The notes under the pieces were generated by a model, which saw only the letters and a program-made list of their open reading frames with translations, was not told the origin of the DNA and did not search any database. Shown one piece after another: positions 19,172 through 35,729 of a DNA stretch of 54,023 nt. This stretch comes from a virus, in the IMG/VR virus record IMGVR_UViG_3300035659_001009, positions 1 to 54,023 of that record. One strand, written 5' to 3'. Every line of letters begins with the position of its first letter. Positions within the stretch are counted from its first letter, which is position 1. The translations under genes and the position numbers were made by a program.

Positions 19172-19177
19172 ATTATA
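19172..19177 (-). promoter_or_regulatory. possible -10 element for the late (minus) unit
   Basis: The minus strand reads TATAAT here, about 50 nt upstream of the HNH ATG. The best -35 candidate at 16-17 bp matches only TTG, so it is a weak sigma70 promoter or one that needs an activator, as is usual for late phage genes. Confidence 0.35.
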
Positions 19178-19243
19178 CGCTTTTTTCAAAATAAAGCAAG
19201 TGGCAACAGTGTTTTTGGTCCGTAGCAACCGTCTCGAAAAAGC

Positions 19244-19288
19244 TTGACAATTTATAAAAATTGTTGTATAATTTTTATAAATTGTCAA
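19244..19288 (+). promoter_or_regulatory. consensus sigma70 promoter inside a perfect 19-bp inverted repeat
   Basis: TTGACA (19244-19249), a 17-bp spacer and TATAAT (19267-19272) form an ideal sigma70 promoter. The same DNA is a perfect inverted repeat: 19244-19262 pairs with 19270-19288 around a 7-nt centre. A dimeric repressor binding this dyad would cover both promoter hexamers. It lies 15 nt upstream of the ATG of a probable HTH regulator and at the divergence point of the two transcription units, so it is probably the main early promoter and its operator. Confidence 0.85.
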
Positions 19289-19303: not shown

Positions 19304-20089
19304 ATGATTACAGGAATGTACGAACCCAACGAAGACGACATTGGCACCCAAGCACCAACAAGAGACGAGGAAGCAGTGGAGATGTATCTCCAAGGGATTC
19401 ATGTTGCAGACATTTGTGTCGAACTCGCCCTGAACCCACCGACTCTCTACCTTATTCTCCGGAGGGCTAGCGTACCAATCGACCGGAGAGGAGCACACCC
19501 CACAGGGTCTTCTCAGGACGCCACGCCCCGTCTGCTGCCAACCCTTGATAGGCCTTTTGGTGTTCATGATCCACGCGCAATTGGTAGACCTCCCAACTTG
19601 GTCACTGAAGAACTCCGCACTTTGATCCTTCACGACTATGAGACCTTTGGATCAGCTCGCAAAGTTGCACATCTCAATGGCCTGACGTACTGGATTGTGT
19701 TGAGGACGCTACGTGAGGAAGGAGTACCACTGTTTATTGGAGCGAAGAAGCAGCCTAGGCCCAGCATTACCGACCTCGCAGGACGGCCCTTGACTACTGA
19801 TGAGGTCTCCAGCATACAGCTAGGAATTGAAGCCGCTGCCGCTGATGACGCCGTATCGCTTGAAGACGTTGCTTTGGAATTTGGGGTAAGTCTGGCCGTC
19901 CTTACGACGATTATCTCGTTGGGCTCCGGGCCCGTTGCGGTGGTGTCAAAGAAGGAGAAGACCAAAGCGGCGCACGCAATGGCGTCGGTCTCCGTGGCTG
20001 ACACAATCACCGCGATTACAAGGGAGGTTGAGGCTAGGGTACGTCGAGATTCTTTGGTTGACTTGCAGCCTCCGCTTCTCGATGTTTGA
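19304..20089 (+). CDS. probable multi-HTH transcription regulator
   Basis: A 261-residue protein from ATG 19304 with AGGAGG 5 nt upstream. Three segments look like separate helix-turn-helix units: about residues 22-55 (AVEMYLQGIHVADICVELAL), 105-140 (LRTLILHDYETFGSARKVAH, then TYWIVLRTLREEG) and 170-205 (SLEDVALEFGVSLAVLTTII). No enzymatic domain was seen. As the first gene behind the palindromic promoter it is the obvious candidate to bind that operator and repress itself and perhaps the divergent unit. DNA binding is inferred. Confidence 0.6.
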   Translation: MITGMYEPNEDDIGTQAPTRDEEAVEMYLQGIHVADICVELALNPPTLYLILRRASVPIDRRGAHPTGSSQDATPRLLPTLDRPFGVHDPRAIGRPPNLVTEELRTLILHDYETFGSARKVAHLNGLTYWIVLRTLREEGVPLFIGAKKQPRPSITDLAGRPLTTDEVSSIQLGIEAAAADDAVSLEDVALEFGVSLAVLTTIISLGSGPVAVVSKKEKTKAAHAMASVSVADTITAITREVEARVRRDSLVDLQPPLLDV

Positions 20090-20202
20090 TCCTGTTTTGG
20101 GTGAATGCCCCTGAGTGACAGTAAAAATACTGTTACGGTTGTAAACCACGGGATATTGTATTCCGTGCTTTATGACCGCGCCCGTTGACCAGGGAGGCCA
20201 AC

Positions 20203-20406
20203 ATGTCAGGTAACACCAACAACCTAACCCACCTCAGCACCAACGCTTTGGTGGTGGTCCTTGGGATCCTCGATGCTACAACGCATCGATTGATCCAGGG
20301 CGGCCGGGTGAAAGCCGCCGGTGTCCTCTGGGGCATGCGACACGTAGCTTCGACAGAGCTACTGCATCGCACCGGGAAGGCTCTCGACCTGGCCCATAAA
20401 GCATAA
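20203..20406 (+). CDS. hypothetical protein, 67 aa
   Basis: Start MSGNTNNLTHLSTNALVVVLG at ATG 20203, with AGGGAGG 5 nt upstream. Mostly helical, with a hydrophobic first helix and a basic second half (GGRVKAAGVLWGMRHV). Not recognised. The 113 nt before it hold a 6-bp hairpin with an A4 loop (20138-20153) and no clear promoter. Confidence 0.55.
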   Translation: MSGNTNNLTHLSTNALVVVLGILDATTHRLIQGGRVKAAGVLWGMRHVASTELLHRTGKALDLAHKA

Positions 20407-20425
20407 GAGCAGATGCTACCTGCGA

Positions 20426-20593
20426 AGCTCAAGGAGCTGAGGTCGGTGTAATGCTGACTGACATTACTTGAGCTGTATCGGTGTGAAGCCGACAAGGTCA
20501 TCAAGGTATGCAACTGTGTAGGATTCTGTAAAGAATCCTTTATTGGTCCTGTCGGCATGAATGCTATGTAGCGTGAATGCCGACTGAGAGATC
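20426..20593 (+). promoter_or_regulatory. hairpin, terminator-like stem and 49-nt element copy A
   Basis: Between two small genes a compound hairpin pairs 20426-20433 with 20467-20474 and, inside it, 20449-20453 with 20462-20466. A second stem, 20520-20526 with 20533-20539, is followed by a T-rich stretch and looks like a weak intrinsic terminator. Then comes the first copy of a 49-nt conserved element (20545-20593, starting GGTCCTGTCGGC), 18 nt before the next ATG. Copies B and C are at 21491 and 23265. Confidence 0.6.
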
Positions 20594-20611
20594 TTGACCA
20601 GGGAGGTCAAC

Positions 20612-20800
20612 ATGACGCCATTCGTCCGAAGGGTGTATCGTGTCATCGATCGAAAGGTCGCTGACGTCCTCAATCGGGGCTCAGCAGCAATCATTACTGA
20701 GCCATTTGGAGATCGGCGGCCTGCAATCACAGCTAAGACTGTGGATCAGGAGTACGTCGACCGAATCAAGAGCCAACTGTGGGCGGAGTGGAGGGCATAA
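20612..20800 (+). CDS. hypothetical protein, 62 aa
   Basis: A small basic protein, ATG 20612 with GGGAGG upstream, behind conserved element A. The N-terminus is arginine-rich (MTPFVRRVYRVIDRKVAD), possibly nucleic-acid binding. Its stop overlaps the next start as TAATG, so translation is coupled. Not recognised. Confidence 0.6.
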   Translation: MTPFVRRVYRVIDRKVADVLNRGSAAIITEPFGDRRPAITAKTVDQEYVDRIKSQLWAEWRA

Positions 20801-21021
20801 TGTGGTACTGTGCGTCGTGTGGTAAGGTGATTTGCAGAGGTCACTTCGCAATCAGCGTGCACGGGAAGCTGTTCTGCAGCGACGCGTGCGAAGCCGTGTA
20901 CGAGAGTCGAGATGTCGCCAAGGTCATCGAGGCGAACCTCGACAACGACGGGGGAAGGAGGGTAACATGCCTGAGTTCTGGTGGGAAGACGCGGACGGGG
21001 TTGTCCGCGGAGTCGTCGTAG
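20800..21021 (+). CDS. small zinc-finger-like protein, 73 aa
   Basis: Begins MWYCASCGKVICRGHF; two CxxC-like pairs (CASC at the start and FCSDAC about 20 residues later) match a treble-clef or TRASH-type zinc knuckle. ATG 20800 overlaps the previous stop. Its last 18 codons overlap the next gene in another frame. Probably a small zinc protein that binds nucleic acid or protein; role unknown. Confidence 0.55.
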   Translation: MWYCASCGKVICRGHFAISVHGKLFCSDACEAVYESRDVAKVIEANLDNDGGRRVTCLSSGGKTRTGLSAESS

Positions 21022-21146
21022 TACGCGATGACCTAACGGCCAAGATGTTCAATGAACCGGGACACGAATACGTGTCAATACGAGTCGTCGACGAAGCTCG
21101 CCTCCACACGGCGATCGTCCGACTCGAGACCCTGGTCGCAATCTAA
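20967..21146 (+). CDS. hypothetical protein, 59 aa
   Basis: Starts MPEFWWEDADGVVRGVVVV at ATG 20967 with GGAGGG upstream. Acidic N-terminus, then a beta-rich middle and a helix at the end. It overlaps the preceding zinc protein gene by 55 nt. Not recognised. Confidence 0.55.
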   Translation: MPEFWWEDADGVVRGVVVVRDDLTAKMFNEPGHEYVSIRVVDEARLHTAIVRLETLVAI

Positions 21147-21157
21147 GGAGGCTGAAC

Positions 21158-21412
21158 ATGTCAGTCAAAGGAACAATCATGATCGTAGTTGCTGGTGCGA
21201 TGCTCCTCATCGCCAAGGACGCGTGCCAGAGTGGAGGCGGGGGTGGCCCGGACACCTTCAATAGCGATGTCGCAACGGCCGTGCCCCTCATTGGCGCGGC
21301 CCAGGATGTGTACAGTCGCGCCATTGACGGGGCGGCCAGTGCGTATGGCGAGGGGGTCCAGGGCTCCCTGGCACAGCAGGCCTGCGCTGCCGCTCCGGAT
21401 CTTTGCAGGTAG
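21158..21412 (+). CDS. small exported or membrane-anchored protein, 84 aa
   Basis: ATG 21158 with AGGAGG upstream. Residues 5-18 are hydrophobic (GTIMIVVAGAMLLIA), followed by KDACQSGGGGG, which could be a lipoprotein-like cleavage site or a simple membrane anchor. The remainder is small-residue-rich with two further Cys near the end. Likely in the cell envelope; possible roles include superinfection exclusion, but that is conjecture. Confidence 0.55.
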   Translation: MSVKGTIMIVVAGAMLLIAKDACQSGGGGGPDTFNSDVATAVPLIGAAQDVYSRAIDGAASAYGEGVQGSLAQQACAAAPDLCR

Positions 21413-21431
21413 ACGCTAGTACAATTGAATA

Positions 21432-21539
21432 GCAGAGCGTAGTAGAGTCTACTAAGTGAGGCTCGAGTCGCTCTGCCAAAGAATTTATTCGGTCCTGTCA
21501 GCGGACATGGTCTGTCGTGTGAATACCAACTGAGAGATT
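21432..21539 (+). promoter_or_regulatory. branched hairpin and 49-nt element copy B
   Basis: An outer 8-bp stem (21432-21439 with 21469-21476) encloses a 7-bp palindromic stem (21440-21446 with 21448-21454). Copy B of the 49-nt element follows at 21491-21539; it matches copy A at 37 of 49 positions without gaps and ends 17 nt before the next ATG. Unlike A and C, copy B cannot form the internal hairpin, which argues for recognition as DNA. Confidence 0.6.
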
Positions 21540-21556
21540 TCACTAAGGAGACTGAA

Positions 21557-21673
21557 ATGAAGAGGCAGATCGATCTCAAGCGTGCCGGTCGCCGGGCCGG
21601 AAAGACATTCAAGCCCAAGTATAGTGGCGGGACGCGTCGCATTGCACGAACCAAGAAACAGAGAGAAGGCTAG
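21557..21673 (+). CDS. very basic small protein, 38 aa
   Basis: Starts MKRQIDLKRAGRRAGKTF at ATG 21557 (AAGGAG upstream). About 14 of 38 residues are Lys or Arg, with no acidic cluster, so it should bind nucleic acid or another polyanion. It lies behind conserved element B. A similar basic peptide is encoded at 28617. No family recognised. Confidence 0.6.
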   Translation: MKRQIDLKRAGRRAGKTFKPKYSGGTRRIARTKKQREG

Positions 21674-21674
21674 T

Positions 21675-21923
21675 GTGTCGATCTCAGATCTGGGCAAGTT
21701 CCTGGAACTCCACAACGTAATGACCTACGGATTGCGGGGCCGTAGGGTTGCGCTAGAGACAACCCGCGTAGCATGGATTCGTAGAACCGGAACGCGAGTG
21801 ACGATCTACGATTGGACGGCCGCACTCGAAGAGGCCGGCCACGACGACACCAAAGAGGCTCTAATCCTGATGGGAGCCCAGGTGTACGATTCGCAACTTC
21901 AGACCATACCTAAGGAGGCATGA
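21675..21923 (+). CDS. hypothetical protein, 82 aa
   Basis: GTG start at 21675 just after the previous stop, with GAGAAGG upstream; a longer in-frame start would run through the basic-peptide gene and is rejected. The sequence SISDLGKFLELHNVMTYGLRG and VRWIRR-like basic stretches suggest a small alpha/beta fold. Its stop sits beside the SD of the next gene. Not recognised. Confidence 0.55.
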   Translation: MSISDLGKFLELHNVMTYGLRGRRVALETTRVAWIRRTGTRVTIYDWTAALEEAGHDDTKEALILMGAQVYDSQLQTIPKEA

Positions 21924-21924
21924 C

Positions 21925-22179
21925 ATGAGTAAGAGAATCGAATTCGCCAAGATCATTCGGCTTGCCAAAGAACAAACTGGCAAGCACCGACCCTCGACCG
22001 AAGAGATCATCAAACAGCTCCACGAAGGAGGGGCATATAAGCTGATCCACCAAACCGCACTCAACGTGCTCACCAACGACAAAGACCCCATCGCCGACGA
22101 CAACTACGCCCACTACGCGGTCGAGGAGGTGATCGGATTAGCCTGCGTCGAGTATTTAGAGGACAAGCGGACCGCCTAA
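21925..22179 (+). CDS. hypothetical protein, 84 aa
   Basis: ATG 21925 with TAAGGAGG. A helical charged protein: MSKRIEFAKIIRLAKEQTGK, then EEIIKQLHEGG, then HYAVEEVIGLACVEYLED. No motif known. Part of a run of short genes with nearly identical SDs in which the stop and SD often overlap. Confidence 0.55.
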   Translation: MSKRIEFAKIIRLAKEQTGKHRPSTEEIIKQLHEGGAYKLIHQTALNVLTNDKDPIADDNYAHYAVEEVIGLACVEYLEDKRTA

Positions 22180-22188
22180 GGAGACATG

Positions 22189-22419
22189 ATGGCAACAAGA
22201 ATAACACTTCAAGAACTCCACTCGTGGATTCTAGAAGCTCGAGAAATCCTATACGATGAGAAACACGAGGGCGTGACGTCACCAAAAAACCTCGTCCTTA
22301 CAGGCGAATTAGCCGACTCGTTCGTAGACGTTCTCGAAGTACAAGAATCGTTCTGCAAAGTATTAGAGGCAGTCGATAACCTTGACTGCCTCTTCCACGA
22401 CAAGTTCGATTGCCGATAA
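22189..22419 (+). CDS. hypothetical protein, 76 aa
   Basis: Two adjacent ATGs (22186, 22189); the second has the better distance from AAGGAG. A helical acidic protein, MATRITLQELHSWILEAREIL, ending LDCLFHDKFDCR. Not recognised. Confidence 0.55.
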   Translation: MATRITLQELHSWILEAREILYDEKHEGVTSPKNLVLTGELADSFVDVLEVQESFCKVLEAVDNLDCLFHDKFDCR

Positions 22420-22430
22420 GGAGGCATGAA

Positions 22431-22850
22431 ATGGCAAACCGATGGTACACGAAGAAGGAAGCAATGGGGAAGTTGGGCCTCGCTCCCAACAACAACACCC
22501 AGCTGATGTCGATCATCCGGTCGCAGGAAGTCGAGTACACGTACATCTTCGACGACGTGCGACACATTCAGCGTCTGATGGTTGACGCGGACGCGATCGA
22601 CGGATACCAGATCCGCCACCGCGACCCGGACGGCGCCCACGAATGGAGCATTCGCATGACCGAGGACGCCCGCGATGCGTTCCTCAAGCTGGCGAACAAG
22701 TTCCACCCCATCGAGGAAGAGCCCACAAGAGCGCTCGCCGAGGTCATCAACGCGATCTACGACGCCGAAGACCTCACGGAGAAGCGTCGCCGCTACAACG
22801 CCAGCCGCAAGGTTGACACTGTCGCGCCCGCCAAGCTCCACGACGCCTAG
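22431..22850 (+). CDS. hypothetical protein, 139 aa
   Basis: ATG 22431 with AAGGAGG. The N-terminus MANRWYTKKEAMGKLGLAPN is reminiscent of a helix-turn-helix (KKEAMGKLGL) followed by a two-strand region, VEYTYIFDDVRHIQRLM; the C-terminus is highly charged. It may be a small DNA-binding protein. No enzymatic residues identified. It is followed by a strong hairpin. Confidence 0.55.
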   Translation: MANRWYTKKEAMGKLGLAPNNNTQLMSIIRSQEVEYTYIFDDVRHIQRLMVDADAIDGYQIRHRDPDGAHEWSIRMTEDARDAFLKLANKFHPIEEEPTRALAEVINAIYDAEDLTEKRRRYNASRKVDTVAPAKLHDA

Positions 22851-22862
22851 AACCTTCCCCAC

Positions 22863-22924
22863 AACCAAATACATTGTAGGAGTGGAACCTACGACGACCT
22901 AAGAGTCATGAATAGGTTCCACTC
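22863..22924 (+). promoter_or_regulatory. AAYYAAATA motif followed by a 12-bp perfect hairpin
   Basis: ACAACCAAATA (22861-22871) is followed by a perfect stem, 22880-22891 with 22913-22924, with a 21-nt loop. No U-tract follows, so it is not a classical terminator. The same layout recurs at 21421, 23181, 24352 and perhaps 24755. Confidence 0.6.
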
Positions 22925-22956
22925 ACGGTTTCGAGCAGACACCTAAGGAGACTAGA

Positions 22957-23172
22957 ATGTCTAGCGTATCAAAGACACAAGGAACGTTTGGTGCAACACT
23001 GTCGGCCGCAGTCCTGCACGACATGGATGACGGCCACAAAGCCGCGATCGTTTACCAGTACCACATCGAGTTCGAGGGTGCACCAGAAGAACTCGCAAAG
23101 GCGATCGCAGCACTACCCATGGTCGAAGAAGTCGCCAAGCTTGAAATAGGAAAGGGCATCGGCGAGAGGTAG
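22957..23172 (+). CDS. hypothetical protein, 71 aa
   Basis: ATG 22957 with TAAGGAG. Beta strand at residues 25-36 (KAAIVYQYHIEFEG), a helix (EELAKAIAALPMVEEVAKLE), and a short basic end. Looks like a small ferredoxin-like or ACT-like half fold but is not assignable. It is followed by another motif-plus-hairpin module. Confidence 0.5.
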   Translation: MSSVSKTQGTFGATLSAAVLHDMDDGHKAAIVYQYHIEFEGAPEELAKAIAALPMVEEVAKLEIGKGIGER

Positions 23173-23180
23173 TCTCTCCA

Positions 23181-23313
23181 CAACTAAATAACAGATAGGA
23201 GTCACCCACTCAGGAATGATGTTGAGTGACTCCTATCGAAGACTGAAGCACAAAGAACCGATTTGGTCCTGTCGGCGTTCATGTTAGATAGAGTGATCGC
23301 CGGCAGGTAGATC
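23181..23313 (+). promoter_or_regulatory. motif-plus-hairpin module and 49-nt element copy C
   Basis: ACAACTAAATA is followed by a perfect 12-bp stem (23194-23205 with 23226-23237). Copy C of the 49-nt element lies at 23265-23313, matching copy A at 36 of 49 positions ungapped, 19 nt before the next ATG. The gap from GGTCC to the ATG is 68 nt here, against 67 (A) and 66 (B), so position relative to the gene is held almost constant. Confidence 0.6.
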
Positions 23314-23332
23314 TCGATAAGGAAGGTTTGAA

Positions 23333-23672
23333 ATGGCTACGAACACAGTAATGAAAGCCCTTGCAGCACTGCAAGGCAAGTACGAATGGTTCACGCTGAG
23401 CACGGGTGGCCAGTTCACCCCAAATCCACTGACCAAGGAGCAGTGGCTGGCAACAGCGTTTGGCCCCCCCAGGGAACGAAGACGCCATGAGCGACCTGCT
23501 CTGTGAAATTGTCAACTGGACGGTGAAGCATGCCCGCGTCGACGCAATCCTTGCAAACGTGCCGGCCGACTACGAGTGGAGCAGTGACACAGGCGACAAC
23601 CCCACGAAAGCGACGCTCGCGTGGTGGTACCTGTGGGATCAACTCACTGAGTGGACCGAGGAGGCAAAGTGA
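23333..23672 (+). pseudogene. small gene split by a frameshift at C7
   Basis: ATG 23333 (GGAAGG upstream) opens MATNTVMKALAALQGKYEWF and runs to FGPP at a run of seven C (23464-23470), after which this frame ends at 23510. The +1 frame continues at once as GNEDAMSDLLCEIVNWTVKH to a stop at 23672. With one C fewer, a single protein of about 112 residues results. Either a sequencing indel, a real mutation, or a programmed shift. The product, helical and Trp-rich, is not recognised. Confidence 0.7.
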
Positions 23673-23929
23673 AACTTGTCGCGTACTTCGAGAACGGAAT
23701 GGAGGGCGTCACCCTAACACCCAAACAACTTGAATTGATTCGTAGAGGCGTCGCTTGCCTCTACGAAGATCGTAAGGATGAAGCGGCTCGCATCGACACC
23801 GATCTCCACTTGACGCCACGCGAGCACCTCATCATCAGCAACGAGAACGACGCCGACATCGAAGCAATTGAGCAACTCCGTGAAATCCTATATCAACAGG
23901 AAGTCTACGAAAAGGCTAAGGAGGCCTGA
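23669..23929 (+). CDS. hypothetical protein, 86 aa
   Basis: GTG 23669 overlaps the preceding TGA (GTGA), with GAGGAGG in front. Sequence MKLVAYFENGMEGVTLTPKQL followed by charged helices ending YEKAKEA. The next gene ends in the similar EQAKEA, because both C-termini encode the SD of the following gene (GCTAAGGAGGCC). Not recognised. Confidence 0.55.
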   Translation: MKLVAYFENGMEGVTLTPKQLELIRRGVACLYEDRKDEAARIDTDLHLTPREHLIISNENDADIEAIEQLREILYQQEVYEKAKEA

Positions 23930-23930
23930 C

Positions 23931-24140
23931 ATGAGCAAGTACGTGGACATGGAAGCAGAAGTAAAGAACGCGAGAAGGATTCGACAACTGGCGCAGGTCG
24001 TTGTGGACGCGTGGTCGCATGGCAGGACCGACATGCGATTCCATGAGTCAATGTCGAAGCTCAAAGCAGCACTGGACGCATCCAGAGTTTACGAACGACG
24101 CTGGGGCGGCGTAGTCGCAGAACAGGCTAAGGAGGCCTAA
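23931..24140 (+). CDS. hypothetical protein, 69 aa
   Basis: ATG 23931 with AAGGAGG. A single long charged helix pattern, MEAEVKNARRIRQLAQVVVD then MSKLKAALDASRVYERRWG. Possibly coiled-coil. Not recognised. Confidence 0.55.
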   Translation: MSKYVDMEAEVKNARRIRQLAQVVVDAWSHGRTDMRFHESMSKLKAALDASRVYERRWGGVVAEQAKEA

Positions 24141-24141
24141 C

Positions 24142-24354
24142 ATGCGCAAGCAACAACTGTACAAGGACATCATCACGGCGTGCAAAGCGTACAACGCAGA
24201 GACCGACGACGAGGACGACCAGATCGTCCCGATCCACCTCGGTGACATCCCACAAGATGGGATACTAACGGCCTACGGAGAGACCCTCGTCGAGGTGGGC
24301 ATCTTAGACGAGGACACCGACGAGCAGATCGCGCTACGTAGTAGCGCCAACTAA
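24142..24354 (+). CDS. acidic hypothetical protein, 70 aa
   Basis: ATG 24142 directly behind the previous stop, SD AAGGAGG. Acidic (TDDEDDQIVPIHLGD, DEDTDEQIA). Such small acidic proteins in early phage regions may inhibit host nucleic-acid-binding proteins by DNA mimicry, but nothing specific supports that here. Confidence 0.55.
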   Translation: MRKQQLYKDIITACKAYNAETDDEDDQIVPIHLGDIPQDGILTAYGETLVEVGILDEDTDEQIALRSSAN

Positions 24355-24419
24355 CTAAATAGTTCGTAAGTAACAACCGACGGCTCGAGGCGTGTGCAAC
24401 TTCGAGCCGTCTCTGTTAC
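24352..24419 (+). promoter_or_regulatory. motif followed by nested hairpin
   Basis: CTAACTAAATA overlaps the previous stop. A 10-bp perfect stem (24379-24388 with 24402-24411) sits inside a further 6-bp stem (24370-24375 with 24414-24419). Fourth copy of the motif-plus-hairpin layout. Confidence 0.55.
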
Positions 24420-24459
24420 CTACGAGCGTACGTAGGAACTGCGACCTAAGGAGGTCAAG

Positions 24460-24687
24460 ATGGCAACGTTACGTGTCAACACCGAGTTCGTCAGACGACA
24501 GGTATTCGCGTCGCAGCAGTACATACTCTTCATGAGCTACGAAGAGCTTACCCAACTCGCGGCGATAGTCGTCATCGCCACCGAGACCTTTTGGGAATCC
24601 CACGACGGCAACAACGAAGAGCATCGTGTCAAGTTCTTCCAACTCGCAAGTCTAGCAAACGAGTTGGAAGCCGCACTCAAGGCGTAA
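24460..24687 (+). CDS. hypothetical protein, 75 aa
   Basis: ATG 24460 with AAGGAGG. Helical with a hydrophobic centre (YILFMSYEELTQLAAIVVIA) and ending LASLANELEAALKA. Possibly a small helical bundle; not recognised. Confidence 0.55.
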   Translation: MATLRVNTEFVRRQVFASQQYILFMSYEELTQLAAIVVIATETFWESHDGNNEEHRVKFFQLASLANELEAALKA

Positions 24688-24714
24688 CAAAGGTTAGTAC
24701 GTAAGGAGACCAAG

Positions 24715-24738
24715 ATGGCTAGAGCACCGCCGCACTAG
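24715..24738 (+). CDS. seven-codon minigene or truncated leader (MARAPPH)
   Basis: ATG 24715 lies 5 nt after an SD (AAGGAG) as good as that of the neighbouring genes, but the frame ends after seven codons within a 14-bp palindrome (24735-24748). It may be a leader peptide (Pro-Pro could slow ribosomes), a minigene, or the remnant of a gene disrupted where the non-coding stretch begins. Confidence 0.4.
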   Translation: MARAPPH

Positions 24739-24748
24739 ACGCGTCTAG
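24735..24748. repeat. 14-bp perfect palindrome
   Basis: CTAGACGCGTCTAG is fully self-complementary and covers the stop of the minigene. Such palindromes are typical binding sites of dimeric proteins; the ligand is unknown. Confidence 0.6.
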
Positions 24749-25431
24749 TAGGATAACTGAATACGTACCCACGGCAGCCGTTGGGATCCGGGCGCAACAG
24801 CCTGAGGCGTGCCGAGCTTGGAAGGAGTACCCAGGCCACCCGTCTGCCTAGTTGCCGGCGAGATCACGGGCCCCCTCCCATCACCCATCTCGGGATGCAC
24901 CGCTTCATGACTAGGGCTCCCCCACCATGTTTACTGGATCGGTGGCTGGTTGCTGTGGCGTTGGCTGGCTGGGGTGGCACACCCCAATCTTCTCAGGGCG
25001 GACAGGGGATCGTGGCGGAGACGAGTATGTTTGGATGGCATTGCGAGGGGGGGGGAGAACATGTTTGCGTAAGCCAGCGAGGGGAGAACGGAAACAATTT
25101 TTCATAGCTTTGTAGGACCCGAAATCATGCACGGGGACACATGAATGTAAAATAACTCATTGTTGTCGATGTTCATTTAAAAAAAGGAGGGGTTAGATGT
25201 AAAGTAAACGACTGGTTTAGGTCTATAGTAGAAGAAATTAAAATAAACATATACAACTATATTATATATATTATACAGTATTTCTTGGGAAGGATCCAAT
25301 CAAAAACAAAGGTCCAACGTCACAGAAACGTCAGGGTACCGTCACATAAAAATCCCTTCAAATGCCACTTACGGAAATACAAAAAGTGTTATATAATAAA
25401 ATCATGGCGCACTCATTGCAGGGAGCTAACC
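24739..25431. other. 690-nt non-coding stretch, GC-rich then AT-rich
   Basis: No convincing gene on either strand. The first part (to about 25130) is GC-rich and can form several hairpins (for example 24836-24841 region with 24816-24821, 24859-24866 region with 24887-24892, and a 6-bp stem at 24972-24984), with a G9 run (25047-25055) and a repeated GCGAGGGG(n)AGAAC at 25043 and 25077. The second part (25130-25300) is very AT-rich. A strong SD followed by ATG-TAA lies at 25184-25202. Iteron-like repeats follow at 25318-25344. Compositionally foreign to its surroundings; an origin or an inserted element are both possible. Confidence 0.5.
25318..25344. repeat. three CGTCA iterons spaced exactly 11 bp, next to AT-rich DNA
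   Basis: CGTCA occurs at 25318, 25329 and 25340, that is once per helical turn and on the same face of DNA, beside the AT-richest part of the window (about 25200-25290). This is the look of a replication origin (iterons plus unwinding element) or of a cooperative regulator site. A -10-like TATAAT is at 25392-25397. Confidence 0.45.
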
Positions 25432-25935
25432 ATGAAACAAGGTAGACCTACCCCACTTCAGTCAGCGTGGAAGAGAGCCTACTACTGGTACATGTCACTA
25501 CAGACACCAGAAGCAAAGGCAACGCTCGACCGCATCGAAGCCGAGTGCAATGCACTGGGCCTTGAGCTACCTTCGGTAACCGGGAGACACGAGTGTTCTC
25601 CCTCACGGTACAACTATCTAGCCCGTATATACAACATAGAAGGCCAAGTCACGGCTGAGGAGTGGGAGAGTCTCAAAGAACGATACGGCTATCAGTGTCT
25701 TTGCTGCCATACTGGGGACATTGTACTTGTGCCAGACTTCATCATCTCCTGGAGCAACAAGGGAACCAACACCATCGAAAACGTTCAACCACTGTGCCCA
25801 AAGTGCAATAAGCTCAAAGGTCGCCGACAGTATGACTATCGCATCCAATGGCTTACAGAAGAGGTCCGAGACATCGAAGATCGAACCAAGGTCGGGTCGG
25901 AGGCGGACATGGTTCAGCTTGAGTTGGGCCTGTGA
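25432..25935 (+). CDS. degenerate HNH protein (catalytic His replaced)
   Basis: A 167-residue protein, ATG 25432 with GGGAG upstream. The C-terminal half keeps the zinc Cys pairs and fold of HNH enzymes: CLCCHTGDIVLV, then NVQPLCPKCNKLKGRR. The catalytic box normally reading (A)DHVIP, as in the genes at 18.7 and 26.3 kb, is PDFIIS here, so the first His is lost. It is probably inactive as a nuclease, possibly a DNA-binding remnant or regulator. It pairs with the intact HNH gene 10 nt downstream. Confidence 0.75.
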   Translation: MKQGRPTPLQSAWKRAYYWYMSLQTPEAKATLDRIEAECNALGLELPSVTGRHECSPSRYNYLARIYNIEGQVTAEEWESLKERYGYQCLCCHTGDIVLVPDFIISWSNKGTNTIENVQPLCPKCNKLKGRRQYDYRIQWLTEEVRDIEDRTKVGSEADMVQLELGL

Positions 25936-25944
25936 GAGATTTCG

Positions 25945-26508
25945 ATGGCACTTAGTGACTTAGAACTAGCATTCAGGGCAGCCCGAAAACTATGGCGTGA
26001 AGACTCCTCCCCTGCGAACAAGGTCGAAATGGACCGTCTCGGGAAAGAACGAAACGCCGTGCGCATCGCAAAACAAAAGGACTCAATGGAAGCCAGTCAC
26101 AAAAGGTGCCAGGAAAGACGGGCAAAACATGAACAGGTGAAAAAGGACCGAGTTTCCACGTACCACGACCGGTGGTTAGAGGCAAGGAAACAAGTCAAAC
26201 AATGGAGAGCTGAGCACCCACGCAAGACTTACATAACCACCCAAGTACGAGCCAACGCAGCACGAAGAGCACGTAAACATGGCACTGAGGGTTCGTACAC
26301 GAACGAAGAATGGCAAACACTACTCGAGAAGTATGACAACAAGTGTATTTGTTGTGGAAAGGGAGACGAAGACCTTACTGCTGACCACGTCATACCTATT
26401 GCCGAAGGGGGAACCGACTTTATCACAAACATCCAGCCACTATGCCAGTCCTGTAACTCACGCAAGGGCACTCATCATACGGACTTTAGAAAGGAGTACC
26501 CAAAATAA
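25945..26508 (+). CDS. HNH endonuclease
   Basis: A 187-residue protein with a long basic helical N-terminus (about 125 residues, likely DNA-binding) and a C-terminal HNH domain: CICCGKGDEDL, TADHVIPIAEGGT with intact His, NIQPLCQSCNSRKGTHH. Very similar in the HNH part to the late-unit enzyme at 18663-19127, so probably a free-standing homing endonuclease related to it. It follows the compositionally odd non-coding stretch. Confidence 0.85.
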   Translation: MALSDLELAFRAARKLWREDSSPANKVEMDRLGKERNAVRIAKQKDSMEASHKRCQERRAKHEQVKKDRVSTYHDRWLEARKQVKQWRAEHPRKTYITTQVRANAARRARKHGTEGSYTNEEWQTLLEKYDNKCICCGKGDEDLTADHVIPIAEGGTDFITNIQPLCQSCNSRKGTHHTDFRKEYPK

Positions 26509-26663
26509 ACAACGCATATGACAAAGATCACCCAAATTTGATGACCTTCAGTACGGTGAATCAAACAACGGTTCCTATATAATCATATCATCAAGCGCGC
26601 GCATCGCACGCGTGCCACAATCACAACAAGGGCTAGACGCCCAAAAGAGAGGATGAAGGTAAC

Positions 26664-27167
26664 ATGGACAAGGTCGATGGAAAGACGCTGTACGACATCA
26701 CGGGAGCTGCGGATTACGTAGACCTGGACACAGGCACGCTTCGCCAGCTCATGGCCAAGTTCGAGATGCAATCGGCCGCACACAAAGCGTTCGCGGCCGG
26801 CCTGGTCCCGAACGACACCCCAATCACCGGCATCAAGTCGGAATGGGCCACGTCGCTGAAGACGGGCAAGCCAGTCCGGGCCTTCCGCCTGGCCGACCTG
26901 GAAGCGTACCTGGTTCGCCCGAAGACGCAGGGTCGCAGTGGCGCGCCGGGCGGGGTCAAGTGGATGAAGGTCCAAGCCACCCCTCAGGCACTGGAAGCAA
27001 TCCGCAACATGGAAGGCGTGAAGGAACTCAAGTCCGCCTTCAACTACGACCCCGTCCGCAACAAGAAGTACCGCATCGAACGCCAGCAGAGGGCCCGCCT
27101 GGCGAAAGCCGCCAAGACCATCGTCGTGCCGAGCGCCGAAGCCGCCGAAGTCTTCGCCGCCAAGTAG
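26664..27167 (+). CDS. putative DNA-binding protein with winged-helix/MerR-like N-terminus
   Basis: A 167-residue protein, ATG 26664 with AGAGGATGAAGG upstream. Residues 8-30 (LYDITGAADYVDLDTGTLRQLMAKFEM) look like the HTH of MerR/excisionase-type proteins, completed by the wing AFRLADLEAYLV near residue 75. The rest is basic and Ala-rich. No integrase is present, so regulation rather than excision is likelier. The 155 nt before it contain TATAAT at 26578-26583 without a good -35. Confidence 0.55.
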   Translation: MDKVDGKTLYDITGAADYVDLDTGTLRQLMAKFEMQSAAHKAFAAGLVPNDTPITGIKSEWATSLKTGKPVRAFRLADLEAYLVRPKTQGRSGAPGGVKWMKVQATPQALEAIRNMEGVKELKSAFNYDPVRNKKYRIERQQRARLAKAAKTIVVPSAEAAEVFAAK

Positions 27168-27191
27168 CCGACCAGTTCGCCGACGCATACA

Positions 27192-27264
27192 CGGCCGGCG
27201 TCACACGAACTACGTCGGCCGTACAATCGAGTGTAAGTGCCAGCAGAGATGCTGGCCTTCACTC
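27192..27264 (+). promoter_or_regulatory. two strong hairpins between genes
   Basis: Stem one: 27192-27201 with 27212-27221 (10 bp, one G-U). Stem two: 27229-27233 with 27260-27264, 27235-27237 with 27257-27259 and 27239-27245 with 27250-27256, closing on a GAGA tetraloop. No U-tract follows. They fit RNA stability or processing elements. Confidence 0.6.
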
Positions 27265-27292
27265 TTCACCGCCGAACCATTGGAGTTCGACG

Positions 27293-27319
27293 ATGAAGCG
27301 TGAACAACGAGCACACTAA
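27293..27319 (+). CDS. eight-codon minigene (MKREQRAH)
   Basis: ATG 27293 follows TTGGAG and ends in TAAGGAGG, where the stop overlaps the SD of the 75-residue gene. It could act as a translational coupler or leader. Expression is uncertain. Confidence 0.3.
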   Translation: MKREQRAH

Positions 27320-27330
27320 GGAGGTGCATC

Positions 27331-27558
27331 ATGGACCAGGAGTTGAAGTTAGTAAAGGTCAAAAGCCGCACAGGCAGTCGCGGCGACGTCCACGATACGT
27401 ACTCGCTAGTCGACGTAGTAACCAACACAACCCTCATGACCTTCAAACACTACGTTGAGTATTCGCTGGGAGAAGTTCCAGTATGTTACACCATCAAAGC
27501 GCCAGCGTCGATCGTGTCCGACGACGAGTTTGATGCGGGCGCACTCGCACCGGCTTGA
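27331..27558 (+). CDS. hypothetical protein, 75 aa
   Basis: ATG 27331 with AAGGAGG. A beta-rich small protein (ELKLVKVKSRTGSRGDVHDT, YSLVDVVTNTTLM) with an acidic end. Not recognised. Last gene before the large structured RNA region. Confidence 0.55.
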   Translation: MDQELKLVKVKSRTGSRGDVHDTYSLVDVVTNTTLMTFKHYVEYSLGEVPVCYTIKAPASIVSDDEFDAGALAPA

Positions 27559-27591
27559 ACCCCCTAACAACTTGTCTTTAGGTGTTGGCTC

Positions 27592-28190
27592 AGGTAAGGG
27601 CGACGCTTCCAGGCTTCATACAAGTAGGCCGAAGGTGCTCCGGGAATGGAGTAGCTAAGGGAATAGAGCAAATAGCGTCGTCCTTACTTAGAGTAAGGCT
27701 AAAGGCGTCCTGTGAAGTTACATGGGGGTGTGCTCTGCGCATTCGATGGACACGCAGGTCGCCCGCGCCGATCTCTAGTGATCAGTAGGTACGTGGCCGG
27801 GCCTGTTGGAGTAAATGACCTGCAAGTCCACGTTCCTCTTACTGGCGGGAGTCGGGCTCACGAAACGTTTGTGGTTGGTCAGGCCTAGCTAGCCATACGC
27901 CACACAGATACGTAAAGCCGTTGCCCTAGAAGAACTGGTGATCACTAGAGATCGGCGACGACGACGAAGGTCGCTTAGCCTCCTTAGCAACTTAACAGGT
28001 CAGCAATGGTGACAGCCAGGCTGGGTGTTCTAGGCCATAGCAGGCCTGTTAGGTTGACAATGAAGGGAGAACGGGAACGACGGTATCAAGAGTCCAGGCT
28101 AGGGCCGACTCCCTGGCATACAAACAAACCTTTCCCGTTCTCCCTAACAAATAGCAAGTGAGCATTGCCTGAGTTGTGCAGACTCGGGCT
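27592..28190 (+). ncRNA. large, highly structured non-coding RNA candidate (about 0.55-0.6 kb)
   Basis: The 659 nt between two genes carry no gene but long helices: P-A 27592-27607 with 27674-27689 (16 bp, two G-U); P-B 27766-27784 with 27939-27957 (19 bp, perfect, enclosing 154 nt); P-E 27989-28001 with 28043-28055 (13 bp, three G-U), extended by 28003-28004/28040-28041 and 28006-28009/28035-28038; P-F 28064-28077 with 28132-28145 (14 bp); P-G 28168-28173 with 28183-28188. Inside P-B, 27791-27796/27828-27833 and 27800-27805/27880-27885 would form a pseudoknot. Size, multi-domain layout and phage location recall the GOLLD and ROOL classes, but no family match is claimed. Strand assigned from flanking genes. 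Confidence 0.75.
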
Positions 28191-28217
28191 ATTATACTTT
28201 GACAAAGGAGTGATACC

Positions 28218-28496
28218 ATGTCGAACATAACTGGACAAAGCGCCAAGGAGGTTTTGGCAACGGAGGAGGGTTTCTACGCTCTCCTATCACAATCGACCCG
28301 AGACGAACTCGAGGCTAAGCTCCCCGAGAGCGTCACGCCCCTGCTTCCCGAAGTGCTCAATGCACTTCAGGCACTGGGCGAAGTGGCGGACGCCGAAAAG
28401 TCCGGGGAGACGTTCACCCTCCAAGACTTCGCCCTCTACGTTAGCCTTGCCGAAGACGAAGACGAAGACGACGACGAAGACGAGGGCGGCGAGTAG
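28218..28496 (+). CDS. acidic protein, 92 aa
   Basis: ATG 28218 with AAAGGAG. Residues 1-75 are helical (ELEAKLPESVTPLLPEVLNALQAL); the last 17 are almost entirely Asp/Glu. Highly acidic tails of this type occur in SSB-like and DNA-mimic proteins. Not assignable. Confidence 0.6.
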   Translation: MSNITGQSAKEVLATEEGFYALLSQSTRDELEAKLPESVTPLLPEVLNALQALGEVADAEKSGETFTLQDFALYVSLAEDEDEDDDEDEGGE

Positions 28497-28560
28497 GCGA
28501 TGTTGGGTCTCTGCCATCGACGTCTGGGCAGGCGTCCGGGTGGTGGGGCCCTTGTCGGTA

Positions 28561-28596
28561 GCCGGGCGGCTTCTTTGTCTGCCGAGGTCGCCCGGC
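28561..28596 (+). promoter_or_regulatory. 8-bp GC hairpin before the basic peptide gene
   Basis: 28561-28568 pairs perfectly with 28589-28596 (GCCGGGCG/CGCCCGGC, 20-nt loop). It lies 20 nt before the ATG and its SD. No U-tract. Confidence 0.5.
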
Positions 28597-28616
28597 CATG
28601 CCACTAAGGAGGTAGT

Positions 28617-28745
28617 ATGTCGTACAACAGTAGACGTGTTAGCTGGAGCGCAGCCCACAAACGTGAGTTAGCTCGGAAGCACAAACGCCAAGTCGAGAAG
28701 AAGACCCGGCGACGGAACACCCGGAGTACCTACAACCGCCACTAA
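28617..28745 (+). CDS. very basic peptide, 42 aa
   Basis: ATG 28617 with AAGGAGG; sequence MSYNSRRVSWSAAHKRELAR, then KKTRRRNTRSTYNRH. Eighteen of 42 residues are Lys/Arg/His-type basic and none form an acidic patch. Probably binds nucleic acid; it might neutralise the acidic protein just upstream or the structured RNA. Unrecognised. Confidence 0.6.
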   Translation: MSYNSRRVSWSAAHKRELARKHKRQVEKKTRRRNTRSTYNRH

Positions 28746-28754
28746 GGAGGTAGC

Positions 28755-29069
28755 ATGGTCAACTGGGAATTTACGCACGAAGACCTTATGGAAGCCGTTT
28801 TGATCATCCAGAAGCACACCTCCATCCTTCCTCAGATCGGGTTCAGCGAGGAAGGCGAACTCCAACTCATCCTCAGGTGTACCAACGAACTCGCCCGCAG
28901 CCCCCTTTGGGTAGAACTCTCAGACGCACGACTTCCAATGCTCCTCGTTCCCGGAGATCCTTACTCTACACTCTACATCGGTGGCAAGCGGCACGACGAG
29001 CCAATCACCACTTGGCCATCTGAAGAGTTCTGTGAGAGGGCCGACCAGCTATACGACAGGAGAGGTTAA
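28755..29069 (+). CDS. hypothetical protein, 104 aa
   Basis: ATG 28755 with AAGGAGG. Mixed alpha/beta: MVNWEFTHEDLMEAVLIIQK, QLILRCTNELARSPLWVELS, then LYIGGKRHDEPITTWP. No motif identified. Confidence 0.55.
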   Translation: MVNWEFTHEDLMEAVLIIQKHTSILPQIGFSEEGELQLILRCTNELARSPLWVELSDARLPMLLVPGDPYSTLYIGGKRHDEPITTWPSEEFCERADQLYDRRG

Positions 29070-29071
29070 CA

Positions 29072-29191
29072 ATGATAGACACACACACAATCGTCGCGTT
29101 CGTTCTGTTTGTTGCCCTAATAGCCTGCGGGTTGTGCGTTCTCGCATACGGGGTCAACGCCCTCGTGTTGCTCCCCATAACCGGAGGGTAA
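29072..29191 (+). CDS. one-span membrane peptide, 39 aa
   Basis: ATG 29072 with AGGAGAGG. Almost the whole peptide is one hydrophobic segment (IVAFVLFVALIACGLCVLAYG) with short ends. First of a run of tiny membrane proteins. Confidence 0.55.
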   Translation: MIDTHTIVAFVLFVALIACGLCVLAYGVNALVLLPITGG

Positions 29192-29192
29192 T

Positions 29193-29318
29193 ATGTTACT
29201 ACAGGGTGGCATCATCACTGGAGCCGAGATCAACCCAACTGACATGATCAGCGGACTCACAGTCGTGCTGATCATCGTCGTAGTCCTCTTCGTTGTAACC
29301 GTTCTCGTTTCGCACTAA
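29193..29318 (+). CDS. one-span membrane peptide, 41 aa
   Basis: ATG 29193 one base after the previous stop, GGAGGG in front. A polar N-terminus of about 20 residues precedes a strong transmembrane helix (LTVVLIIVVVLFVVTVLVS). Function unknown. Confidence 0.55.
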   Translation: MLLQGGIITGAEINPTDMISGLTVVLIIVVVLFVVTVLVSH

Positions 29319-29336
29319 AGAAGGTGGGGTACAACT

Positions 29337-29630
29337 ATGACAGACAAGGTCCGAGATATTCTCAACGAGAAGGCAAAGGACTACGACACTCCTGCAGGCC
29401 AAGCTTGGGAGATAGTAGGCCAACTCCTCACTTGGTTCCAAGTACACGGATTACTTGACAAGATCCTACCAAGCGGATGGGGCTTTGTGTGGATCATCAT
29501 CCTCGTCAAGCTAGTCAGACTGAGTCAGAGCCCCAATCACGCCGACAGCTGGCTTGACATTGCTGGGTACGCTACGCTCGTCTCGGACCGCCTCACCAAG
29601 GAACAAGTCAGCCAATGCAATACTATGTAG
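29337..29630 (+). CDS. DUF6378-like phage protein
   Basis: A 97-residue protein. The C-terminal segment with KLVRLSQSPNHADSWLDIAG followed by YATLVSDRL matches the conserved K-x-x-R-L...H-x-D-S-W-x-D-I-A-G-Y signature of a widespread small phage family (DUF6378), of unknown function and often near nucleotide-metabolism genes. It overlaps the next gene. Confidence 0.7.
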   Translation: MTDKVRDILNEKAKDYDTPAGQAWEIVGQLLTWFQVHGLLDKILPSGWGFVWIIILVKLVRLSQSPNHADSWLDIAGYATLVSDRLTKEQVSQCNTM

Positions 29631-29839
29631 TTAGCGTCTGTATTACACTAGTCGCGCTATTGTCTGGATACTTCTACGGACGCAGAAGCTGGCTTGGAGC
29701 TGCAGTTGGTTTAGTCGGGAACATTCTCTGGATCGCATACTTCGTATGGATCGGACAGTATCCATTGATTCTATCGACCTGTCCGTTTCTGATCCAAAAC
29801 GTTTGGAACCTTCACGTAATGCGCAAGAAATCGAGATAA
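29615..29839 (+). CDS. three-span membrane protein, paralogue of the one at 42131
   Basis: A 74-residue protein with three hydrophobic stretches and the core YGRRSWLGAAVGLVGNILWI, then GQYPLILST, NVWNLHVMRKK. The gene at 42131 encodes YGKRSILGPWISILSCIIWC, QYPLLISV and NLWRMSK, clearly the same family. Possibly an envelope protein for exclusion or transport; function unknown. Confidence 0.65.
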   Translation: MQYYVVSVCITLVALLSGYFYGRRSWLGAAVGLVGNILWIAYFVWIGQYPLILSTCPFLIQNVWNLHVMRKKSR

Positions 29840-29935
29840 GGCACCCACCTTACCTGGATCAGAGTCAAAAGATCGTCTTGTGAATCACAACAGTGGGGTG
29901 TGCTATGTGCGCTCCGCAAAGGAAGGTGTAACACG

Positions 29936-30076
29936 ATAGCAAACGCTCTTATGCTCCTTGCGATAGCAGCAGGAATCTGGATTTTGGTAGTATCACTTGG
30001 ACCGCTTGCGCCGTTCATACTTATCGGCGGAGCGATCATAGCGCTCATTGCCCTTCTGTTATGGAGGCAGACATGA
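29936..30076 (+). CDS. two-span membrane peptide, possibly ATA start
   Basis: The frame (IANALMLLAIAAGIWILVVS, then PFILIGGAIIALIALLLW) ends in TGA overlapping the next ATG. The only in-frame ATG (29951) has no SD, whereas GGAAGG is 9 nt before an ATA at 29936. The RecB-like gene at 32962 shows the same pattern (AGGTGT..., GATAG). Either ATA initiates, or 29951 is used (41 residues). Confidence 0.5.
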   Translation: MANALMLLAIAAGIWILVVSLGPLAPFILIGGAIIALIALLLWRQT

Positions 30077-30822
30077 CAAAGTTGTATGTCGTTGGAAGCA
30101 AAGTAGAGCCACTACTCACGTTCTCGTCTCCACACAATACGGCCTTCTTCCAAGCGTCGTGGTGTCCGCAACCTTTTGCCTCGCTTCCAAAGGTACTCAA
30201 AAGGTGTCGGGTTATCCTCGACGTACAGCACATCTCCGATCACAGTGTTGCCGTTGCAAGTATGGAAGAGGTCGAGACGGCTATCAACGTTCTAAATCCC
30301 AACCTCGTTGTCATCCCCGACGTGCTCATGGACGCCGAAGCAACACTTCAGTCGGCAGTCACCTTCTTCGGAGAGATTCGTAAACTGTTCCCTCATCCAT
30401 CTTTCAACTTCATGTTCGTTCCGCAGGGCAGTACTCTCCCCGAATGGAGACGTTGCCTTTGTGAGTTCTTCGGCTTGCCATTGTGGGGTACTAAACTTGT
30501 AACCACAATTGGTATCCCAAAGATCCTCCACAAGGTCGCAATCAACCAGGGTATCTCCGACTTCCACCGTTTCGAACTCCTTGGCTTCATTCCAAAACCC
30601 CTCAACATACACATGCTTGGGTGTTGGGGTGGTTGGCAAGAAATGGAAGGTCACCAATGTGTCGCGTCCTGGGACACCTCGTTGCCCGTTGCAGCCGCAC
30701 AACGCAACCACTTTATGGCAACGGGAGACGTAAAATGGCAACTCCTCGAAGACGTAGAGGTTGAAGATCCTCGCGTCGTCACATCGAATGCACAGTTCCT
30801 AGCAGAGCGGTTGGGAGGCTAA
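30073..30822 (+). CDS. dpdA: DpdA-like DNA 7-deazaguanine transglycosylase
   Basis: A 249-residue protein, ATG 30073 with GGAGG 6 nt upstream. The TIM-barrel pattern of tRNA-guanine transglycosylase relatives is seen: LVVIPDVLMD (Asp83, base-pocket Asp of the family), FMFVPQGSTLPEW, TTIGIPKILHK, HMLGCWGGWQEM and VASWDTSLPVAAAQ (Asp201, probable nucleophile). Phage DpdA proteins of this size exchange guanine in DNA for a 7-deazaguanine base. With QueC, QueD, QueE and FolE encoded 9-12 kb downstream the pathway is complete. It lacks the zinc site of tRNA enzymes, as expected for DpdA. Confidence 0.75.
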   Translation: MTKLYVVGSKVEPLLTFSSPHNTAFFQASWCPQPFASLPKVLKRCRVILDVQHISDHSVAVASMEEVETAINVLNPNLVVIPDVLMDAEATLQSAVTFFGEIRKLFPHPSFNFMFVPQGSTLPEWRRCLCEFFGLPLWGTKLVTTIGIPKILHKVAINQGISDFHRFELLGFIPKPLNIHMLGCWGGWQEMEGHQCVASWDTSLPVAAAQRNHFMATGDVKWQLLEDVEVEDPRVVTSNAQFLAERLGG

Positions 30823-30823
30823 T

Positions 30824-31039
30824 ATGTGGATCTACATTGATAGCAACTTCGTAACCAAAGTGGCTATTTGGATAATCGTAGTAGCCATAGCAACACTGGT
30901 CGAGAATCTCATTATCAAAGAGGCCGGCGTACAGCTCCCATCAAATCGCACGATACGCATTACGTATCTCCTTGCGGTCAAGGTACCATTTGCGTTCGTT
31001 GCCATACTTGCTGTTGTGCTCTTCTGGAAAGTGGGCTAA
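30824..31039 (+). CDS. two-span membrane protein, 71 aa
   Basis: ATG 30824 right behind dpdA, SD GGGAGG. Hydrophobic segments at about residues 10-30 (VAIWIIVVAIATLVENLII) and 50-68 (VPFAFVAILAVVLFW). Unrecognised. Confidence 0.55.
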   Translation: MWIYIDSNFVTKVAIWIIVVAIATLVENLIIKEAGVQLPSNRTIRITYLLAVKVPFAFVAILAVVLFWKVG

Positions 31040-31087
31040 CTTGGTCATGTCGGAGGGTCATGTTTCTTCTGTTGATGAGAGGTAGCA

Positions 31088-31525
31088 ATGTACATACATG
31101 CATTCGATCCTGGAGAGAACACCGGCTACTGTCTACTTCAGTGCTGTTTAGGGGTAGGTCACATTCATGTTACTGGATCCAAAACGCTGACCCTCTATCA
31201 GGAGCTTGCCTGGGTTGCTGAAACCTTTCAGTCCACGAAGCCCAACATTGTCGTCATCGAGGCTTGGAGACTTTACCCGCACAAGGCGTTGAGCCAGATC
31301 GGATCGAAGATGCCAGCAGCGGAACAGGCAGGCATCATCAAGTACTTGTGTTGGCTGCACAATATCGAGTGGGTCGAACAAATGGCGTCGTGCAAGCAGG
31401 CGTTTGAGAGTCCGAACGTGATCGCACAGGTACTTCCAGGATACACGTTGCCAAAGTCCGAGCACGAGAAGGACGCACTGCGTCATGCGTTGTACTATTG
31501 GTTCAACACAGGGAGACACCAGTGA
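31088..31525 (+). CDS. RuvC-like (RNase H-fold) nuclease
   Basis: A 145-residue protein. It shows the RuvC active-site plan: FDPGENTG with Asp7, NIVVIEAW with Glu58, and SEHEKDALRHALYYW with Asp129 and nearby His residues. It should be a Holliday-junction resolvase or related branch nuclease acting on replication or packaging intermediates. The stop overlaps the helicase start (GTGA). Confidence 0.82.
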   Translation: MYIHAFDPGENTGYCLLQCCLGVGHIHVTGSKTLTLYQELAWVAETFQSTKPNIVVIEAWRLYPHKALSQIGSKMPAAEQAGIIKYLCWLHNIEWVEQMASCKQAFESPNVIAQVLPGYTLPKSEHEKDALRHALYYWFNTGRHQ

Positions 31526-32913: not shown

Positions 32914-32961
32914 GACGATGTTTCAAGTTCCTATGTACACAGTATAGATAGGAGGTGTGAG

Positions 32962-34065: not shown

Positions 34066-34066
34066 A

Positions 34067-35644: not shown

Positions 35645-35651
35645 CGTGTTC

Positions 35652-35689: not shown

Positions 35690-35729
35690 TGCACAAACCA
35701 AACCCAAACGAAAAAAGGAGTAACTGAAC

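Follow-up and report, generated by a model that had tools for sequence, protein, structure and literature searches.

A repeated 49-nt leader before small early genes of an uncultivated phage as a candidate lineage-specific promoter or operator

What sets the expression of the small genes near the start of the rightward arm of an uncultivated phage genome, and why is one 49-nt sequence found before three separate clusters of them? The whole stretch of DNA analyzed (hereafter the window) is the IMG/VR record IMGVR_UViG_3300035659_001009, positions 1–54,023, and the element in question occurs in it at 20545–20593 (copy C1), 21491–21539 (C2), and 23265–23313 (C3), always on the plus strand. Judged from the sequence, the copies are interpreted, with moderate confidence, as one early-gene regulatory leader, a lineage-specific DNA promoter or operator at which transcription would be initiated and a protein would bind. 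The leader has the appearance of a phage-specific, reusable gene-switch cassette, and cassettes of this general kind are known in other phages.

Copies of the Element and Their Conservation

The three copies that the first-pass annotation had described were recovered at the same places, with the gap-free 49-nt alignment and the identities to C1 that it had given (37/49 for C2 and 36/49 for C3). C2 and C3 share 31/49 positions, and the copies are overall 63–76% identical. They form the strongest direct-repeat family (D1) in the whole 54-kb window, and the repeat extends to 65 nt. A matrix made from two copies recovers the third at 34.7–51.6 bits (51.6 for C1, 37.8 for C2, and 34.7 for C3 in the leave-one-out scoring), with unrelated stretches next at ~4–6 bits; the maxima of the full matrix in shuffled windows are 4.1 bits or less. 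The bases invariant over the three copies are GGTCCTGTC, then GC, ATG, T, T, G, GTGA, CC, C, G, and AGAT. The conserved 49-bp core can be written as GGTCCTGTCRGC...ATGnT...GTGA...CC...AGAT, and a 9-base block is invariant across all three copies.

The matrix scan detected no further significant copy in the window. Three additional candidates, at 20087–20122, 25893, and 31041–31085, were rejected, their scores being within or near the shuffle range. The first of them (plus strand, repeat D8) stands before gene 20203 as a possible fourth copy in decay and has 20/21 ATG-leader bases in common with C1, and the last (plus strand, TTGGTCATGTCGGAGGGTCATGTT...AGGTAG), another candidate decayed copy, ends 2 nt before the ATG at 31088; both failed the shuffle test.

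Flanking Sequences and Downstream Genes

The surroundings of the copies are likewise as first described: each copy ends 17–19 nt before an ATG (20612, 21557, and 23333) and is preceded by an AAAGAA box and a hairpin. The boxes, all on the plus strand, are located at 20530–20535 (C1, identified in the sequence and in the alignment), 21478–21483 (C2), and 23252–23257 (C3), which is 15, 13, and 13 nt upstream of the first G of the respective copies. The stem-loop upstream of C1 (20520–20539) is followed by TTATT, and the AAAGAA box overlaps its 3' arm; those upstream of C2 (21432–21476) and C3 (23194–23237) are also on the plus strand and have no T-run. Among the three, only the stem-loop of C1 matches the terminator pattern, with a T-rich run after the hairpin. 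Stem-loops are not special to the gaps holding the element, since gaps of the early arm without it contain them too. A stretch CCACAACYAAATA...TAGGAGT, similar in the two cases, opens the gaps at 22862 and 23181 and runs into the stem-loop there. A short motif common to the gaps, CAACYAAATA, is not significant.

The leaders carry ordinary Shine–Dalgarno (SD) sequences, AGGGAGG, AAGGAGA, and AAGGAAG. The plus-strand cluster after C1 (20612–21412) begins with an open reading frame (ORF) of 62 aa without a family match, and a hairpin TTGACC-AGGGA-GGTCAA is found at the ribosome-binding site before its ATG. The clusters after C2 (21557–22850) and C3 (23333–24354), on the same strand, begin with a K- and R-rich ORF of 38 aa and an ORF of 57 aa, respectively. 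Close to the end of ORF 23333–23506, seven consecutive C (window 23460–23510) stand before an overlapping ORF in another frame, 23487–23672; this is possibly a sequencing frameshift or a programmed frameshift. None of the small genes tested after the copies has a convincing family match. The first genes behind C1, C2, and C3 show no similarity to one another, which indicates that the leader is reused before different genes and rejects duplication of the element together with its genes.

The copies might also be a repeat without function, recent intergenic duplicates spread by recombination, retained by chance, and now decaying, as in C2. Consistent with this, there are only three clear copies, and the dyad arms of C2 differ from those of C1 partly by transitions. 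A near-identical assembly lacks the element region, as is possible in a strain-variable region: of two IMG/VR contigs 99.98% identical to the window, one ends at 20319 and the other begins at 24928, leaving out 20320–24927, i.e., exactly the elements and the small genes. The breaks at both sides perhaps reflect strain differences there. However, at the identity given above, the copies have kept the 9-base block, the AAAGAA box, their orientation, and the distance to the ATG, and the element is kept while its flanks and downstream genes are unrelated, a pattern that suggests selection. A non-functional repeat is thus extremely improbable.

Promoter Analysis

Genes of the window are directed leftward from ~19.2 kb; those directed rightward extend over 19.3–45 kb. 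Between these divergent arms lies the best sigma70-like site of the window, PR (19244–19272, plus strand), with the sequence TTGACA-17-TATAAT, a 12/12 match to the consensus, and a score of 17.2 bits. The divergent PL (19172–19199, minus strand; TTGCTT-16-TATAAT, with the −10 at 19172–19177) points towards the left arm and is, at 12.1 bits, the sixth strongest sigma70-like site. The presence of the consensus PR and the divergent PL between the arms indicates that the phage uses a bacterial sigma70-type promoter. PR sits within a 45-bp palindrome with 19-bp arms (19244–19288), before a gene (19304–20089) encoding a 261-aa protein with weak helix-turn-helix matches. Its location inside a palindrome before a helix-turn-helix gene suggests autoregulation.

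With the sigma70 matrix, the best register common to the three copies of the element averages 2.1 bits, versus the scores of PR and PL and the 10.1–13.1 bits of seven extended start-associated sequences (ESAS) of mycobacteriophage Adephagia, which served as controls. No register with −35 and −10 hexamers spaced by 16–18 bp is shared by the copies, and a promoter pattern scan has no hit in them, in agreement with the earlier statement that the element does not match plain sigma70. A plain sigma70 promoter is therefore rejected and the elements, if promoters, are not of this type, since they score 2.1 bits against 10–17 in the controls. On inspection, the elements do not have the sigma54 spacing (GG-N10-GC) either.

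Promoters of the sigma70 type that have diverged would read T(T/C)GGTC-16-TATGTA/TCTGTC/TAGATA in the three copies, with TG before the −10. The conserved ATGnT falls at such an extended −10, and AAAGAA stands 33–35 nt before it, as in one of the relatives described below (G004). The low score of the best shared register, compared with those of real or control promoters, makes this reading very unlikely.

Folding of the Element as DNA and RNA

The dyad of C1 has the arms GTCGGCAT (20551–20558) and ATGCCGAC (20577–20584), and that of C3 the arms GTCGGCG and CGCCGGC; in C2 the dyad is broken, the breaks including three G-to-A differences from C1. It can be traced in all copies as degenerate DNA half-sites. 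In RNA folding, C1 and C3 have z-scores of −4.5 and −4.35 (0/200 shuffles each) and C2 has −0.3. The C1 structure closes end to end over exactly 49 nt, and forcing C2 into it costs +5.3 kcal/mol. The observation of the first-pass annotation that two copies fold and the third does not is reproduced by these scores; its conclusion that the element is for this reason a DNA site is weak with three copies.

An RNA role is the main rival to the DNA promoter/operator reading. The element would then act after transcription, as a 5' or intercistronic stem-loop controlling the stability or translation of the downstream cluster, in a transcript read through from PR or started at AAAGAA and recognized by a protein, an RNase, or the ribosome. 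Besides the folding of C1 and C3, with the exact closure of C1, this is supported by pair 13–34, which is A-U in C1 and G-C in C3, and by the early leaders of a relative, in which stem-loops of differing stem sequence stand just before the ribosome-binding site. If AAAGAA served as a −10, moreover, the conserved block would start at +1 in C2 and C3. On the other hand, C2 is unfolded, the conserved bases extend beyond the stems, and random substitution of the paired positions of C1 keeps as many pairs as are seen in C2 (P = 0.88) and C3 (P = 0.14). A conserved RNA hairpin was rejected, there being no pairing support between copies, a comparison to which three sequences lend little power, and no match of an Rfam 15 covariance model over the element. 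Taken together, an RNA leader is a serious possibility, although a somewhat unlikely one.

The dyad (GTCRGC...GYYGGY, on two strands) could also be a pure operator, bound by a phage repressor or activator that tunes or silences the early clusters, with transcription of these starting elsewhere, at PR or at weak sites. The persistence of the dyad in all copies, with degenerate arms, and the location of the helix-turn-helix gene 19304–20089 just upstream are consistent with this, and the ESAS of Adephagia pair a promoter with a dyad (PMC11373665). However, the promoter of the helix-turn-helix gene carries a palindrome of its own, AT-rich and different from the dyad; the arms of the dyad, with centres 28 bp apart, are not separated by an integral number of helical turns; and the right arm of C2 is poor. 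A pure operator is decidedly unlikely.

Early Leaders in Related Phages

A search of phage GenBank revealed no DNA-level match of annotated phages to the window and no copy of the element, nor did a copy emerge when close relatives were sought by protein similarity in IMG/VR and in the GTDB genome collection. When IMG/VR was scanned for exact patterns, one scan produced 65 single matches, about as many as the length of the pattern predicts, and another 4; those examined look like chance, and no copy of the element was found among them. Relatives were identified with a profile of the DNA polymerase from the window and one relative. These relatives, the closest at 31–48% identity, share with the window the genes helicase-exo-Sak4-primase-QueC-QueE-GCH-pol in the same order. 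A profile scan with the helicase yielded no new close relatives, its matches being mostly SNF2-type helicases of a generic kind.

Leaders were compared within each relative, with a clear result in one, IMGVR_UViG_3300032046_000032 (G012). Upstream of its helicase, at record positions 26647–37411, ten early leaders carry GACCCTTATG-N18-TATAAT (0 in 20 shuffles). A second relative, IMGVR_UViG_3300035659_000022 (G004), has five leaders with AAAGAG-N27-30-TATAAT. A stem-loop lies between the −10 and the ribosome-binding site in 8/10 leaders of G012 and 2/5 of G004; in G012 the stem sequence varies between copies while pairing is kept. The pattern AAAGA-N4..8-TTG-N18..22-TATAAT is present 6 times in 20 relatives, where shuffles have 0.2, and TATAATTAT is present 39 times, where shuffles have 4.5. 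Unrelated phage loci taken as a control (1,139 kb) contain one instance of the former and 31 of TATAATTAT, which alone is therefore less specific.

At least these two relatives have early leaders that are repeated and carry a box specific to the lineage. Their layout parallels that of the window (box, element with dyad, SD, ATG) at the same genome position and with a different sequence. The carriage of repeated promoters in the same early region by relatives with the same module makes a promoter role of the element more likely. The absence of conservation in relatives, named in the first-pass annotation as counting against its reading, holds for the element sequence itself, of which no copy was found in IMG/VR or in the relatives; only the architecture recurs. 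This suggests that, in the phage group, the arrangement of repeated early leader, stem-loop, and SD is retained while the recognition sequence is exchanged; phage regulatory turnover could then be studied in a tractable case. Homology of the element to the promoters of the relatives, suggested by the spacing of AAAGAA, is unsupported by matrix ranking.

Proposed Function of the Element

The phage-specific promoter or operator class to which the element was initially assigned stands in part: the lack of a sigma70 register and the analogous repeated leaders in relatives agree with it, while the failure of the sequence to recur in them does not. Several observations weigh against the DNA promoter/operator reading. 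No copy has recognizable −35 and −10 hexamers, and transcription of the entire right arm could come from the perfect PR at 19244, so that internal promoters would not be needed. Two registers are possible, one with the −10 at element positions 21–26 and the other with AAAGAA as the −10 and a start at GGTCC. Two of the three copies fold strongly as RNA. A pattern search of 11 relatives found none containing the element sequence, and the promoter matrix of the relatives ranks the elements ~900th to 6,200th of 108,000 positions.

If the copies are nevertheless DNA promoters or operators, each of them would control the expression of the next small-gene cluster, with the stem-loop ahead of it as the boundary to the previous gene cluster. 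Together, the conserved 49 bp and the AAAGAA box most likely form a DNA recognition site, either a phage-type early promoter or a promoter combined with an operator. Host RNA polymerase would read it with the help of a phage or host regulator and not through plain sigma70 hexamers. A promoter for a phage-encoded RNA polymerase was rejected, no gene for such a polymerase or for a sigma factor being found among the larger window proteins scanned, a negative that does not cover small ORFs. Transcription may be directed by a weak extended −10 inside the element; alternatively, with AAAGAA at −10, it may start at the beginning of the conserved block. In C1 and C3, the same DNA would also encode a 5' mRNA stem-loop, and the upstream stem-loops may end or process the preceding transcript.

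A broader proposal, that the elements represent a class of early promoters without sigma70 hexamers, served by host RNA polymerase and a putative factor, with relatives using different private boxes, is tentative and on balance unlikely. If it is true, the specificity of this early-promoter system would change from one relative to the next.

The common leader identifies the small early genes, unrelated as they are to one another, as a single regulatory group. Such groups in other viruses include host-takeover and anti-defence genes, and the element would single out about a dozen genes of unassigned function for functional testing.

Comparison with Known Systems

The nearest described kinds of element are the ESAS of cluster K mycobacteriophages (PMC3203893; PMC11373665) and the promoter early stem-loops (PeSLs) of T4-type phages (PMC4503421). 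Like ESAS, the element is ~50 bp long and occurs in several intergenic copies in one orientation just upstream of the starts of non-structural genes. In both, there is an imperfect inverted repeat without the behaviour of an RNA hairpin, and ESAS too may follow a stem-loop. In contrast, ESAS hold SigA-like −35 and −10 hexamers within their 46–50 bp (TTGACA-17/18-TACTGT or TATTGT, 10–13 bits), which the window element lacks. Most of them are followed by the 13-bp start-associated sequence GGGATAGGAGCCC or a near variant, absent from the window leaders, and their imperfect inverted repeat is 15–17 bp, against arms of 8 bp in C1 and 7 bp in C3 and a broken dyad in C2. In Adephagia, ESAS combine a promoter with a dyad, and a regulator has been proposed but not identified (PMC11373665).

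PeSLs (Arbiol 2010; Comeau 2014), as described in PMC4503421, resemble the leaders of the window in being repeated units of a stem-loop and a promoter-like sequence, interspersed among small, functionally unassigned genes of a variable early region. They carry recognizable early promoters and a terminator, whereas the window element has no sigma70 promoter and only the stem-loop of C1 resembles a terminator. Mediation of gene shuffling between relatives is a further trait of PeSLs; here, the near-identical assembly lacks 20320–24927. The element is assigned to neither ESAS nor PeSLs, as defining features of both are lacking.

The TATAAT leaders of G012 and G004 share with the element the genome region, the replication module, and the repetition before early genes, as well as the order of a lineage-specific upstream box, often a leader stem-loop, and then SD and ATG. 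They differ from it by a clear −10, TATAATTAT, and by other boxes, and the element does not conform to the pattern box-N-TATAATTAT. In archaeal viruses, a conserved regulatory sequence precedes early anti-defence genes (PMC11065993), and HGTV-1 has a TATA-plus-inverted-repeat motif (PMC3950731). These leaders are similar in that one regulatory sequence is common to many small, mutually unrelated early genes; they are, however, archaeal TATA/BRE promoters, and the phage studied here has a bacterial consensus promoter at 19244.

Other Features of the Genome

The window encodes a terminase, a glycosyltransferase, a helicase, an exonuclease, a Sak4-like protein, a primase, and a family-A DNA polymerase, together with QueC, QueE, and GTP cyclohydrolase of the 7-deazaguanine pathway. 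A GC-rich, non-coding-looking stretch and the adjacent HNH endonuclease genes 25285–25935 and 25945–26508 that follow it (24720–26508 in total) are perhaps an intron or homing region, with no Rfam match. The 660 nt at 27559–28217 likewise have no Rfam match; this stretch has little coding capacity, contains a 27-nt inverted repeat (27758–27784 and 27939–27965), and resembles structured RNA.

The 9-mer GGGTGTGCY occurs 14 times in the window on both strands, versus 1.1 expected, a count reached in 0/100 shuffles. Its positions, 191, 957, 3689, 12510, 19492, 24976, 27726, 29896, 38268, 41167, 43022, 43370, 45849, and 46029, fall in genes and gaps alike, and it could be a dispersed protein-binding site.

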